A stretch of 39,287 nt of DNA from a virus: the IMG/VR virus record IMGVR_UViG_3300005511_000033, positions 1-39,287 of that record. One strand, given 5' to 3'. The translations under genes and the position numbers were made by a program. The notes under the pieces are model-generated. The model searched no databases. It saw only the letters and a list, made by a program, of their open reading frames with translations, and had not been told where the DNA came from. Below, in pieces: positions 27,977 to 39,287 of the stretch (position 1 is its first letter; each line of letters starts with the position of its first letter).

Positions 27977-28186
27977 CTACGCATTGGCCGGCTCCTGGGC
28001 GGGAGGGGCAACGGGCTTGCCGAAAACATCTGGGCGGAGAAGCTCCAGGTACTGACGCCGCGCGCGCGGTATGCCAGTAGTTCGCCACTTCGTCACCGAA
28101 GGCTGTTTGCATTCACACAGGCGCGCAACGGCGGCAGTGCCGCCCAAGGCGTCGATGGTCGCGGAGTCGGGGTGCAAGGTATCCAT
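27977..28186 (-). CDS. Cro-like/YdaS-like repressor
   Basis: A 69-aa DNA-binding protein with a helix-turn-helix around residues 12-45 (IDALGGTAAVARLCECKQPSVTKWRT) of the Cro or YdaS type. It is divergent from the CI-like gene, which is the normal immunity arrangement. There is no Shine-Dalgarno, and a possible promoter would start the RNA close to the ATG. It should bind the palindromic operators next to it and turn off early or repressor transcription. Confidence 0.75.
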   Translation of the reverse strand: MDTLHPDSATIDALGGTAAVARLCECKQPSVTKWRTTGIPRARRQYLELLRPDVFGKPVAPPAQEPANA

Positions 28187-28192
28187 GGCGTC

Positions 28193-28221
28193 ATCTTAGC
28201 TATAGCTAACCTAAACCGCAA
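28193..28221 (-). promoter_or_regulatory. Leftward early promoter (predicted)
   Basis: On the minus strand a -35-like TTGCGG (28216-28221) and a -10-like TAAGAT (28193-28198) are 17 bp apart. The operator at 28196-28209 overlaps the -10 and spacer, so repressor bound there would block it. The predicted start lies near the cro ATG, which suggests a short or absent leader. Confidence 0.5.
28196..28209. promoter_or_regulatory. Operator O1 (TTAGCTATAGCTAA)
   Basis: A perfect 14-bp palindrome in the cro-cI intergenic region. Variants occur at 28228, 29201 and 29226. A repeated palindrome beside a divergent repressor pair is the expected form of phage immunity operators. Confidence 0.8.
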
Positions 28222-28227
28222 GCGGAA

Positions 28228-28241
28228 TAAGCCATCGCTAA
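28228..28241. promoter_or_regulatory. Operator O2 (TAAGCCATCGCTAA)
   Basis: Near-palindromic variant of O1, matching 11 of 14 positions, with centre 32 bp from that of O1. It lies near the expected CI-like promoter and could mediate autoregulation. Confidence 0.65.
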
Positions 28242-28265
28242 CAGCTCGGCAAATAGGATGACGCG

Positions 28266-28643
28266 ATGAATACGTTGTCTGAGCGCATTAAACTTGCGAT
28301 GTCCGCGGCAAATTTGTCGCAGGCCGATTTGGTGCGCGCCACAGGCGCCAGCGGCCCGTCCGTTTTCAATTGGATTAACGGGCGCACGAAGAACCTCAAG
28401 GGTAGAAACCTTGTCCTCGCGGCGAGAGCGCTCGGAGTCAGCGACTCTTGGCTGGCAGATGGCAGAGGCCAAATGGAGCGGGCAGAGGAAAGCTTTTGGC
28501 CCTTCGATAGCGTCCCTTGGGAGCGATTCCAGCAACTCACGGAAGCGCAACAGAAAGGTATCGAAGATGCTCTTAGACGACAGGTAGACGCCTTTTTGGG
28601 TGAAGCGCCTGTGAAAAGCGAAGGGGACGAGAAAGCCGCCTAA
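28266..28643 (+). CDS. CI-like repressor without peptidase domain
   Basis: A 125-aa protein with an XRE-type helix-turn-helix in the first half (about 4-65: SERIKLAMSAANLSQADL, TGASGPSVFNWINGRT, then LAARALGVSDSWL). The second half is short, acidic and helical, with no S24 LexA-like protease motif. It is therefore likely to be the lysogeny repressor but not one inactivated by RecA-stimulated self-cleavage. Divergent to the Cro-like gene, with operators between. AGGATGAC precedes the ATG. Confidence 0.8.
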   Translation: MNTLSERIKLAMSAANLSQADLVRATGASGPSVFNWINGRTKNLKGRNLVLAARALGVSDSWLADGRGQMERAEESFWPFDSVPWERFQQLTEAQQKGIEDALRRQVDAFLGEAPVKSEGDEKAA

Positions 28644-28708
28644 GACGCAGGCGGTGCGGTTAGCGTTGGTCCCCGATACCGGAAAATTTTTGCCCACTGA
28701 GTGACAAA

Positions 28709-29137
28709 ATGCGGCGAAACCTTCGATATGTTCCCGTTGCGTTCATCTTTCACGCTTTCGTGGCGTCGGCGTCACAATTGCCGACCGACACCGAGATACG
28801 CGCGGCGTACTGCCTAGCCCCCATGCAGACGGTTGTTATGCAATCCAATCTCAACGCCGCGATCGCAGAGAAGACTCCATCTATGAGCGCAGCGAAAAAA
28901 GCGGAAGCCGCTCGCGACGTGCGGGCAGCGACAACTGACCTCGAAAAATTGAATGCATACCTGCGCCCTCGGTTTATTTACATGGTCGACAGCGAGGATC
29001 TTGCGTATACGGTGGCGATGAACGACGCCGTGCAACGCGGGCGCAATGCTGTTCAGGAACTCTCAACACCAGGCGATCACAGCGGCACCCGCTCGAAAAT
29101 GAACGTCTGCTTCAGGCTTGACTGGCTGCCGTTTTAG
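28709..29137 (+). CDS. Exported protein, possible lysogenic-conversion factor
   Basis: A 142-aa protein with a typical Sec signal: basic n-region (MRRNLR), hydrophobic core (VPVAFIFHAFV) and an AxA-type cleavage site in ASASQ (about residues 20-23). The mature part has a helical centre (KKAEAARDVRAATTDLEKL) and two cysteines (about 35 and 134) that could pair in the periplasm. It lies just behind the repressor, before a terminator, on a strand likely to be active in the lysogen. Superinfection exclusion or host surface change are possible roles; no family is recognised. Confidence 0.6.
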   Translation: MRRNLRYVPVAFIFHAFVASASQLPTDTEIRAAYCLAPMQTVVMQSNLNAAIAEKTPSMSAAKKAEAARDVRAATTDLEKLNAYLRPRFIYMVDSEDLAYTVAMNDAVQRGRNAVQELSTPGDHSGTRSKMNVCFRLDWLPF

Positions 29138-29159
29138 CCGAGCCACCGCCCGCCACTAC

Positions 29160-29180
29160 GCCGCCTACGGGCGGCTTTTT
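29160..29180 (+). terminator. Intrinsic terminator after the repressor/export gene unit
   Basis: GCCGCC and GGCGGC (6-bp stem, TACG loop) followed by five T residues. It isolates the immunity transcript from the rightward operon that starts after the next operators. Confidence 0.85.
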
Positions 29181-29200
29181 CATGCGCGTTACAAAAAAAC

Positions 29201-29214
29201 TTAGCTATAGCTAT
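29201..29214. promoter_or_regulatory. Operator O3 (TTAGCTATAGCTAT)
   Basis: Matches O1 at 13 of 14 positions, about 1 kb away, just upstream of the rightward small-gene operon. Confidence 0.75.
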
Positions 29215-29242
29215 TGCTTGTTGCCTTAGCTATGGCTAATAT
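29214..29242 (+). promoter_or_regulatory. Predicted rightward promoter
   Basis: TTGCTT (29214-29219) and TAATAT (29237-29242) are separated by 17 bp. Operators O3 and O4 lie just before the -35 and across the spacer, so repressor would block polymerase. It would drive the operon starting at 29279. The hexamers are only fair matches to the consensus. Confidence 0.5.
29226..29239. promoter_or_regulatory. Operator O4 (TTAGCTATGGCTAA)
   Basis: Matches O1 at 13 of 14 positions; centre 25 bp from O3. It overlaps the predicted promoter spacer and -10. Confidence 0.75.
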
Positions 29243-29278
29243 TCATCCCATCACACCTGCACACCGATGGGAGAAATG

Positions 29279-29599
29279 ATGATCAAGCTTTCCTTCATGC
29301 CCAAAGACGGCGCCCGCTCCAACTACTACGACTGCGTGGCGAAATCACCTGACGGTTCGATCTGGAAATCCAGCGGCAACCGCTGGTCACTGTTGCAGCA
29401 AGCAGCCCCCAGCACGCATCGCAAGCAAGAGTTGGAACGGTCCGGGTCTTTCGTTCACGGCTGCCTCGGGTTTGCGCTTTCCATGGTGCTGTTTGCGCGG
29501 CCTGTCGCGATGACTTTCCCTTCGTTCGGCGTTGGTTTCCCGATTCTGCTGGTGATCAGCTTCATCAGCGCTGCCATTTTCATCCGCGCCTGGCGCTGA
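29279..29599 (+). CDS. Small membrane protein, first gene of rightward operon
   Basis: A 106-aa protein with a soluble N-terminal half (MIKLSFMPKDGARSNYYDC, polar) and two hydrophobic helices in the second half (about 58-75 and 83-101). It is first in the operator-controlled operon, so it should be made early after induction. The ATG at 29279 was chosen for its spacing to GGGAGA; ATGs at 29267 and 29276 are in frame. Function unknown. Confidence 0.6.
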   Translation: MIKLSFMPKDGARSNYYDCVAKSPDGSIWKSSGNRWSLLQQAAPSTHRKQELERSGSFVHGCLGFALSMVLFARPVAMTFPSFGVGFPILLVISFISAAIFIRAWR

Positions 29600-31078: not shown

Positions 31079-31516
31079 ATGAACGAAATCACCATCGACA
31101 TCGACAACTACCTGACCGAAGTAGAAAAGCGGCAGATCGCACGTGAAGAGTTTCGATCCGCGTGCGCACGTCGCACACAAGAGGACTTCGAACGCATCCT
31201 GAGCAACGCGGCCTACAGCCTGGTGCAAAAGGAAGTCGACGCCGCCTTCGACGGAAACATGGTCGACACGGTGCGCGATAAGGCAATCAAGGTCATCAAC
31301 GAACTCAACAATTTCAACGTGTTCAGGGCGCCGAATTCCTGGGACACCGAACCCAGCAAGGGCTGGACGTATCTGCAAGAAGCCATCGAGTCCGCGAAGC
31401 CAGCGATTTCTCAGCGCGTGCTGGCCATCGTCGCCGCGCTCGAATCAGGCGAGCTGCGCGAACGCATCAATGACCTGATCGGCGATGTGATCGTCAACAA
31501 ACTGACGAGCCAGTAA
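31079..31516 (+). CDS. Unknown 145-aa helical protein
   Basis: Charged helical protein (start MNEITIDIDNYLTEVEKRQI), with a central helix over VDAAFDGNMVDTVRDKAIKV and a C-terminus with RERINDLIGDVIVNK. It directly precedes the RecE-like gene with a TAATG overlap, so it may belong to the recombination module, but nothing in the sequence proves this. Confidence 0.55.
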   Translation: MNEITIDIDNYLTEVEKRQIAREEFRSACARRTQEDFERILSNAAYSLVQKEVDAAFDGNMVDTVRDKAIKVINELNNFNVFRAPNSWDTEPSKGWTYLQEAIESAKPAISQRVLAIVAALESGELRERINDLIGDVIVNKLTSQ

Positions 31517-32415
31517 TGAACGCCGCCACCGACCACCAGCACCTGATCGAGCCGCCCTGCGTGCTGGCCGGCCAGGACATCGACGCGTACCACCGCGGCC
31601 CCGGCATCAGCAAGACCGGCCTGGACCAGGTGGCGCGCTCGCCAGCGATTTTCCATGCGCTGTACTTGAACCCGAACCGTCCGCCGGAGAAGCAGCGCGC
31701 CGGCCAACTGGAAGGCCAGCTTGCCCACTGCGCCATCCTGGAACCGGACGAGTTCGACAAACGCTACTGCGTGCTGCCCGAAGACGCGCCGCGCCGGCCA
31801 ACGGATGCCCAATGGAACGCCAAGAAATCCAGTCCAGAAAGCATCGCCGCAAAGGAATGGTGGACGGAGTGGAACAAGCGCAGCGCCGGCCGCATCATCG
31901 TGACGCACGAGCAGCGCGAAACGGCCTTGCGCCAGGGTGACGCCGTTCGCTTGCTGCCCGACGTGGCCGAGGCCCTGGCCAGCGGTATGCCCGAGCAGTC
32001 CGCCTACTGGGTCGACCCGGAAACTGGCGTCCTGTGCCGCTGCCGGCCGGACTGGACGCACCCGTCCGGTGACAACGGCGTCATCCTGCTGGACGTCAAG
32101 ACCTGCGGTGACGCCAGTCCGGACGAGTTCGCGCGCCAGGTCGCCCGCAAGCGCTACCACGTGCAGGACGCGTTCTACAGCGACGGCTACGCCCTGGCCG
32201 CCGCCCGCGATGTGTTGGCCTTCATCTTCATCGCTGTCGAGTCGGAATACCCCTACGCCGCGTCGGCCGTGATGCTGGACGACAAGAGCCGCGACGCCGG
32301 CCGGTATGCCTACCGCCGCGACCTCGACACCTACGCCCGCGCCACCGCCGCCAACGACTGGCCCGGTTTCGGCACGGGCATCCACCAAGTTTCCCTGCCC
32401 GCCTGGGCGCTTTGA
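31516..32415 (+). CDS. RecE/exonuclease VIII-like PD-(D/E)XK nuclease
   Basis: A 299-aa protein. The start region (YHRGPGISKTGLDQVARSP, then GQLAHCAILEPDEFD with H71) is typical of RecE-type and DUF3799 nucleases. Catalytic candidates are D179 (in CRPDW), D193 and K195 (in LLDVKTC), and the QxxxY motif Q217-Y221. It would digest one strand from double-strand ends to make tails for annealing. The next gene is the likely annealing partner. Confidence 0.85.
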   Translation: MNAATDHQHLIEPPCVLAGQDIDAYHRGPGISKTGLDQVARSPAIFHALYLNPNRPPEKQRAGQLEGQLAHCAILEPDEFDKRYCVLPEDAPRRPTDAQWNAKKSSPESIAAKEWWTEWNKRSAGRIIVTHEQRETALRQGDAVRLLPDVAEALASGMPEQSAYWVDPETGVLCRCRPDWTHPSGDNGVILLDVKTCGDASPDEFARQVARKRYHVQDAFYSDGYALAAARDVLAFIFIAVESEYPYAASAVMLDDKSRDAGRYAYRRDLDTYARATAANDWPGFGTGIHQVSLPAWAL

Positions 32416-32430
32416 TCCCCTGAGGACCAC

Positions 32431-33453
32431 ATGAACGACCACGTACAGAATCCCTTTGCCGTCGCCACTCGCGGCAGCGCCGATGGCGCCTTGGCGGTCA
32501 GCGACCAGGCGCGCGGTATTGCCGAGGTGCAGGCCAAGTTGCTGATGGCCCAACAGTTCCCCCGCGACCCCGTGCAGGCCATGGACAACATCCTGAACGC
32601 ATTCACCCGGCCGCGCCTGGCTGAGGTCGCCGTCTACCAGTACAGCCGCGGCGGCACCGACGTGAGCGGCCCCAGTATCCGGTCGGCGGAAACCATCGCC
32701 CAGAATTGGGGCAACATCGAATTCGGCTTTCGCGAGGTGTCGCGCGGCCGCGGCTCCGATGGCGTGACGTACAGCGAAGTCGAGGCATTCGCCTTTGACC
32801 TGCAATCCCGTACGCGCCGCGCGCTGCAATTCCAGGTCCGTCACTGGCGCGACACGCGCAAGGGTGGCTACAAGGTCACCGACGAGCGCGACATCTATGA
32901 ACTGATGTCCAACATGGCCCAGCGCCGCGTGCGCGCCTGCATCCTGGCAATCGTGCCTGGCGACGTGGTCGATGCAGCCATGGAGCAGGCGGAACTAACG
33001 CTGAAATCCAAGGCGGACACCAGCCCCGAGGCCATGCAGAAGATGGTCGGCGCATTCGAACCGTTCGGTGTCAGCAAGGATCTGCTGGAGAAGCGTATCG
33101 GCCGCCGTCTGGAAGCTATCCAGCCCGCCCAGGTGGTCAGCCTGAAGAAGATCTACGCCAGCCTGCGCGACGGCGTCAGCGCTCCGTCTGATTGGTTCGA
33201 GGTCGACGAATCGGCCGGCGACGATGGCGGCGCCACCAGCCTGAAGGACATCAAGCAGCGCGGCAAGAAGGCCAGCGCGCCGCCGACTGATCCGCCCGCC
33301 TACGATCCCGCGCCCTTCTTCCAGCAGATCGCCCAGGCCAACAGCATCGAGACGCTGGACCTCGTCGCCGACTCGTTCAACGACGCACCGGACGAGCACT
33401 ACGACGCCCTGAGAAAGGCCTACGACAACCGCCGCGCCGAGCTGGCCGGCTGA
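32431..33453 (+). CDS. Putative ssDNA-annealing/recombination protein
   Basis: A 340-aa protein that does not clearly match RecT, Bet or Erf by motif, but its first 200 residues form an alpha/beta core (AIAEVQAKLLM-like helix near 30-45; AMDNILNAFTRPRLAEVAVYQYSRGG; GPSIRSAETIAQNWG) and the C-terminus has helical blocks (LKKIYASLRDGVSAP). A gene directly behind a RecE-like nuclease usually encodes the annealing partner, so this role is inferred from context. Proteins of this sort are common in proteobacterial phages and often left unassigned. Confidence 0.5.
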   Translation: MNDHVQNPFAVATRGSADGALAVSDQARGIAEVQAKLLMAQQFPRDPVQAMDNILNAFTRPRLAEVAVYQYSRGGTDVSGPSIRSAETIAQNWGNIEFGFREVSRGRGSDGVTYSEVEAFAFDLQSRTRRALQFQVRHWRDTRKGGYKVTDERDIYELMSNMAQRRVRACILAIVPGDVVDAAMEQAELTLKSKADTSPEAMQKMVGAFEPFGVSKDLLEKRIGRRLEAIQPAQVVSLKKIYASLRDGVSAPSDWFEVDESAGDDGGATSLKDIKQRGKKASAPPTDPPAYDPAPFFQQIAQANSIETLDLVADSFNDAPDEHYDALRKAYDNRRAELAG

Positions 33454-38994: not shown

Positions 38995-39192
38995 ATGACC
39001 GCCACCGCGACCGCACCGGAAAAACTGCTGTACCGCATGAAGGACCTGCCGGCCGTGGTCGGTATCTCCCGGTCCGAAATCTATCGGCAGCTCGCCGAGG
39101 GCAAGTTTCCCAAGGGAATCAACCTGACGCCGAAGGTCGTCGTATGGAAAGCGGAGGACGTGAAGCGCTGGGTCGACGCACTTGTACCCTGA
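38995..39192 (+). CDS. AlpA-like excisionase/regulator
   Basis: A 65-aa protein with the AlpA helix-turn-helix: YRMKDLPAVVGISRSEIYR (about 13-31), RQLAEGKFPKGINL and a final KAEDVKRWVDAL. These small proteins act as excisionases or as activators of integrase genes. It lies at the right end beside attR, and in the circular phage just before int. GAGAGAGGA precedes the ATG. Its last codons and stop (CTTGTACCCTGA) coincide with the first right-hand arm-type repeat. Confidence 0.85.
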   Translation: MTATATAPEKLLYRMKDLPAVVGISRSEIYRQLAEGKFPKGINLTPKVVVWKAEDVKRWVDALVP

Positions 39193-39220
39193 TTTGTACC
39201 CTAAGCCAGATTTGTACCCT
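39182..39220. repeat. Integrase arm-type sites, right arm (3 x TTGTACCCT)
   Basis: TTGTACCCT occurs at 39182-39190, 39194-39202 and 39212-39220 (starts 12 and 18 bp apart). The first spacing equals that of the left pair (128, 140). The first copy overlaps the 3' end of the AlpA-like gene. Together with the left pair they form the expected P and P' arms. Confidence 0.75.
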
Positions 39221-39230
39221 CGAAAACCCC

Positions 39231-39273: not shown

Positions 39274-39287
39274 TCGCGGTAGTAGCA
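39274..39287. repeat. attR core (direct repeat, right copy)
   Basis: Exact copy of the first 14 bases of the window. Marks the right end of the integrated element, 11 bp after the terminator T-tract. Confidence 0.85.

Follow-up and report, generated by a model that had tools for sequence, protein, structure and literature searches.

We analyzed the complete virus record IMGVR_UViG_3300005511_000033 from IMG/VR (39,287 nucleotides; here called the window). An integrase gene near its left end marks the virus as a temperate phage or prophage. Between an AlpA-like ORF that ends at 39192 and the integrase (177-1463), TTGTACCCT repeats occur at 39180-39221 and 125-150, and an exact 14-base direct repeat, TCGCGGTAGTAGCA, is present at both ends of the record (1-14 and 39274-39287). 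These terminal repeats are possibly an att core with arm-type sites, or else an assembly overlap of a circular genome. The putative immunity region and the operons that flank it contain the following genes and predicted sites:

27977..28186, minus strand: cro, encoding a 69-aa Cro/YdaS-type repressor related to Xfaso1-type Cro; heads the leftward early (PR) operon
28193-28221, minus strand (toward cro): predicted PR promoter, placed by positional homology with relatives; -35 TTGCGG at 28221-28216, 17-nt spacer, -10 TAAGAT at 28198-28193
28196-28209, no strand: putative operator OR1, TTAGCTATAGCTAA, exact; lies between the PR -35 and -10 and overlaps the -10
28228-28241, no strand: putative second OR operator, TAAGCCATCGCTAA, 3 mismatches; spaced 32 bp from OR1, with the PR -35 beginning 6 nt downstream of it
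28266..28643, plus strand: cI, encoding a 125-aa repressor with a 434/P22 c2-type HTH (residues 1-68) and a 45-aa helical tail
28709..29137, plus strand: 142-aa ORF with an N-terminal hydrophobic, signal-like segment; rex position
29160..29175, plus strand: terminator-like hairpin and T-run that would end the cI transcript just ahead of PL
29201-29214, no strand: putative operator OL2, TTAGCTATAGCTAT, 1 mismatch; abuts the PL -35 (CTAT-TG)
29214-29242, plus strand: predicted PL promoter, with a geometry common to relatives; -35 TTGCTT at 29214-29219, 17-nt spacer, -10 TAATAT at 29237-29242
29226-29239, no strand: putative operator OL1, TTAGCTATGGCTAA, 1 mismatch; 25 bp from OL2, between the PL -35 and -10
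29267..29599, plus strand: first ORF of the PL operon; the start is more likely ATG 29276 or 29279, behind a GGGAG motif at 29269-29273
31516..32415, plus strand: exonuclease VIII of the RecE C-terminal/DUF3799 type, encoded in the PL operon
32431..33453, plus strand: 340-aa protein (phrog_3657) adjoining the exonuclease, in the RecT position

The order of these genes is the mirror image of that in lambda. Leftward past cro lie genes for a replication initiation protein and then a DnaB-like helicase; rightward of the distal operators come small genes followed by the exonuclease. The 142-aa ORF, which had no match in Pfam, PHROG, or PADLOC, is probably carried on one transcript with cI. Among the window and its relatives, the genes located between cI and PL differ from phage to phage (the window, L005, L012, L029, L038, L040-L044, and L072). 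Many of them are signal-peptide or lipoprotein-like, as in the rex slot of lambda. Named by eye, L040 has a long AlbA/Schlafen-like ORF and L072 a DprA-like ORF, while L029 and L043 carry similar ORFs of ~310-332 aa ("GVPYLSGRGLARMCGIDH...") on opposite strands. The first gene of the PL operon matched no Pfam or PHROG family and had zero relatives in IMG/VR.

To classify the two regulators, we used protein families, structure profiles, and a predicted structure. Cro gave weak Pfam matches to YdaS_toxin and P22_Cro, a PHROG assignment to phrog_8008 ("DNA binding protein"), and PDB profile matches to 3bd1 ("Cro protein," E = 4e-5) and protein XPH1. CI is of the HTH_3 type and is a "transcriptional repressor" in PHROG. 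Its HTH matches the 434 and P22 c2 repressors by PDB profile. Residues 1-67 of the predicted structure can be superposed on P22 c2 and 434 Cro/CI, at VIA Z scores of 11.5 and 11.2, respectively, and all structure-search matches are confined to residues 1-69. The sole NCBIfam match of the window CI was DicA (E = 9.5e-7). We do not claim membership in that family because the score of 28.7 bits is far under the curated cutoff of 101. Peptidase S24 (PF00717) had no match anywhere in the record, so that CI, at only 125 aa, is not a repressor of the autocleaving LexA/CI type.

Palindromes resembling TTAGCTATAGCTAA are restricted to this region. A search of all 39,287 bases at up to 3 mismatches recovered four sites and no others, against a chance expectation of 0.16, and none of 100 shuffled sequences contained four or more. 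The proximal pair occupies the gap that separates leftward cro from rightward cI, and the distal pair lies 1 kb on, at the start of the rightward operon. A sequence-only reading had described this palindrome as occurring twice between cro and cI and twice 1 kb away, at the start of a rightward small-gene operon. Both the four sites and the gene context (cro at 28186-27977, minus; cI at 28266-28643, plus; a rightward operon from ~29276) proved to be right. The weakest of the sites is the second proximal one, and the OR region is irregular in that it has two sites 32 bp apart, whereas relatives mostly have three at 22-25 bp. In most relatives the third OR site adjoins the cI start codon; in the window, cI is preceded instead by a 24-nt leader that contains a GGA motif.

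The same reading had proposed that both pairs overlap predicted promoters, a claim that the window's sequence by itself bore out only in part but that the alignment of relatives supports. A scan for the sigma-70 consensus returned zero promoters in the region, and PR and PL each agree with the consensus at just 7 of 12 positions, which is why our promoter assignment is comparative. The homologous promoter of the relatives has the form operator-CTATTGACa-N17-TAATAT, which supports an overlap at both pairs. At PL, the promoter-distal OL site continues directly into the -35 and the other OL site falls between the -35 and -10; in L006, for example, it reads TTAGGCATGCCTAT TGACATGAAAG ATAGGTATGCCTAA TATTC, that is, TTGACA-17-TAATAT. 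The PR of relatives follows the same design. We found no location for PRM in the window.

Two further observations concern the transcripts. The PR -10 stands only ~7-12 nt ahead of the cro ATG (28184-28198; also in relatives L005-L047). This proximity, with the third OR operator touching the cI ATG in most relatives, suggests that cro mRNA may be leaderless and, in relatives, cI mRNA as well. Near the PL transcript start, an inverted repeat (TCCCATC/GATGGGA at 29246-29252 and 29266-29272) overlaps the GGGAG ribosome-site motif. At the corresponding position in the PL leader, several relatives can form a comparable hairpin from different bases. It could be a 5' hairpin of the mRNA or a conserved RNA fold, although the statistics (7 of 30 individually <0.05; combined p ~1e-5) come from a shuffle control that does not separate it from the ribosome-site constraint and are suggestive only.

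We then compared the layout across related phages. A protein search with Cro yielded 54 relatives in IMG/VR, of which those with enough upstream sequence provided usable loci. For each locus, we built a matrix from the palindromes of its own cro-cI gap only and sought the best further pair of sites beyond the gap. The first set comprised the window and 38 relatives; prophages from bacterial genomes (Achromobacter, Stenotrophomonas, Lysobacteraceae, Nitrosovibrio, and others) served as a hold-out under the same rule. A second operator group, with a pair that outscored all 100 Markov shuffles, was present in 49 of 50 loci (the window plus 49 Cro relatives), L045 being the only exception. All 11 hold-out prophages with recognizable OR sites had a distal pair. 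The second group lies 0.5 to 5.4 kb from the OR region. Of the 50 loci, 45 have the paired sites 24-26 bp apart (45 bp in L038, L039, and L040; 33 bp in L072), and the junction of OL2 with the -35 is CTATTG, again in 45 of 50. Many of these loci are near-identical, and clustering of the PL leaders reduces them to ~30 distinct lineages.

The operator word itself varies by phage (TTAGGCATGCCTAA, TTAGGACTAGCTAA, TTAGCTTAAGCTAA, TTAGCCATGGCTAA), and the OR and OL words agree inside each phage. This agreement within phages, against the differences between them, is the strongest evidence for recognition of both places by a single protein or a single protein pair. The identity of position 5 (C versus G) tracks differences in the CI recognition helix. 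Phages with C have a CI helix of the GASG/GAKA/GAKS/GTKA or RPTV kind and those with G mostly a GIKP/GVKP-like one, while Cro varies little.

The CI proteins of the relatives are of two kinds, as judged by length and by eye: those of 115-186 aa have no peptidase, and those of 221-238 aa carry an S24-like region at the C terminus. Short and S24-type CIs share the same operator layout, which shows that the predicted OR/OL arrangement is independent of the CI peptidase domain. The tail of the window CI (WPF..V...RF..L...Q..GIE......DAF; helical residues 85-111) recurs in other short CIs. It is also found, 74% identical over 43 aa, on a different and unrelated HTH in L004 (5178-5306) and L078 (3001-3129). 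This sharing suggests that the C-terminal tail may be a swappable module.

Gene content ties the second promoter to recombination. The exonuclease at 31516-32415 matched Pfam DUF3799 (E = 4e-21) and phrog_412 (E = 4.5e-81) and is 60% identical to an exodeoxyribonuclease VIII of a Bordetella phage. We do not call its neighbor (32431-33453) RecT because it matched no Pfam or NCBIfam family and is unlike the N-terminal part of the RecT-annotated neighbor in Bordetella phage IFTN2. Of the records of 31 relatives, 7 contain DUF3799, YqaJ, or RecT genes (L006, L013, L015, L027, L028, L030, and L036); several of the records without them are short fragments. In all seven, as determined from contig ranges and PL positions, these genes lie downstream of PL and on its strand.

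From these data, we conclude that the immunity region of the window is very probably of the lambdoid type and that its operators are bipartite, with OR at cro/cI and OL at PL; their binding and the resulting repression are predicted from sequence. Cro and cI diverge with tandem operators between them, the same operator recurs past cI at another early promoter, and the early operon of that promoter carries recombination genes by content; we do not treat the three operators per locus of lambda as essential, the window having two. The sequence-only reading had labeled the rightward genes a recombination operon and had proposed a two-site immunity region over cro/cI and that operon, though it did not name this as the standard OR/OL layout of lambda. 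The first label agrees with the RecE-C/DUF3799 exonuclease in the PL operon and the seven relatives, and the second is supported by the 49 of 50 loci in which the predicted distal motif follows each phage's own operators. In the lysogen, dimers of CI, with its 434/P22-type HTH, would occupy both OR and OL. Each pair covers the -35/-10 face of its own promoter, and CI would shut off PR (cro and the replication genes) and PL (the small early genes and the RecE-type exonuclease) simultaneously. After derepression, Cro, which is expected to read the same sites, would exclude CI. Because CI lacks an S24 self-cleavage domain, induction probably proceeds by an antirepressor or another non-proteolytic route.

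This is a known type of system, lambda OR/OL, here with a minimal repressor; the immunity region of this phage group had no DNA relatives in the annotated phage collection searched, and we found no open-access paper on this operator family. With lambda, the window shares an operator-bearing gap between divergent cro and cI, a second operator group at PL, recombination genes in the PL operon, a gene between cI and PL (as rexAB), and a Cro operon that leads to replication genes. It differs in having two 14-bp operators per locus rather than three, an OR-OL distance of ~1 kb rather than ~2.3 kb, and a CI without the peptidase/oligomerization domain. The operators of 434 are 14-bp palindromes, like those of the window, and the HTH fold of the window CI is closest to P22 c2 and 434 Cro/CI; however, the full-length 434 and P22 c2 repressors have a cleavable C-terminal domain, which the window CI does not. 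The CI of TP901-1, in the CI/Mor system, likewise lacks an S24 peptidase, has a similar HTH (Z 10.4), and acts in a system with multiple palindromic operators, but it belongs to a Gram-positive phage and has another C-terminal domain that forms hexamers (PMC4941734). A further parallel is with the repressors of Gifsy-1, -2, and -3 (GfoR/GtgR/GfhR, of the DicA/RacR group). There, the recE operon is silenced by a short, non-cleaved repressor until small antirepressors relieve the repression, and DicA has been placed in the same group (PMC3121763). Sequence similarity to the window CI is limited to the HTH; the lack of a self-cleavage domain in the window CI points to induction of the antirepressor type, as in Gifsy. 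Within the window, LexA boxes were at chance level (7 versus 10 expected), and a search for an ANT-domain antirepressor found none.

We also considered whether CI at OR and OL bridges the ~1 kb between them in a looped complex needed for repression and for autoregulation of cI. Such a loop would add to the bipartite reading, and we regard it as possible but somewhat unlikely. Looping in lambda depends on the large C-terminal domain of CI, which the window CI lacks, although its helical tail, common to other short repressors, could oligomerize. Lambda CI loops across ~2.3 kb (PMC5880393), and the two-locus layout is kept here at variable distance; yet that distance ranges from 0.5 to 5.4 kb, and plain double-site repression would account for the layout without a loop.

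It is much less probable that the distal pair is read only by Cro or another regulator, leaving the recombination operon outside CI control in the lysogen and making PL a target of lytic turn-off by Cro. The specificities of CI and Cro are not separated by these comparisons, and the operators show loose covariation with each of the two HTH proteins, but the position-5 class follows the CI recognition helix rather than the low-variation Cro, and the best OL matches share their consensus with OR1. In the Gifsy phages, moreover, a recE-lacZ fusion is silent in the lysogen and is induced by the antirepressor (PMC3121763). That the repeats arose by chance, or are a mobile-repeat feature with no regulatory role, can be virtually dismissed: one proximal site is poor, but four sites never arose in the 100 shuffles, and position, spacing, and promoter register are kept over ~30 lineages with diverged motifs.

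The bipartite OR/OL reading has consequences beyond the window. With considerable doubt, we suggest that temperate phages of proteobacteria (Achromobacter, Stenotrophomonas, Lysobacteraceae, and others) include a widespread branch that uses lambda-style OR/OL with a CI that is minimal and non-cleavable. The 45-aa helical tail of this CI would provide both cooperativity between the loci and docking for an antirepressor. In this phage group, the OR/OL layout persists through divergence of the operators. Sequence alone suffices to predict the operators of both loci, which provides testable immunity specificities for Achromobacter and Stenotrophomonas prophages. Finally, phages with short CIs and those with S24-type CIs form natural pairs in which to ask whether two-locus repression works without an oligomerization domain of the lambda type.
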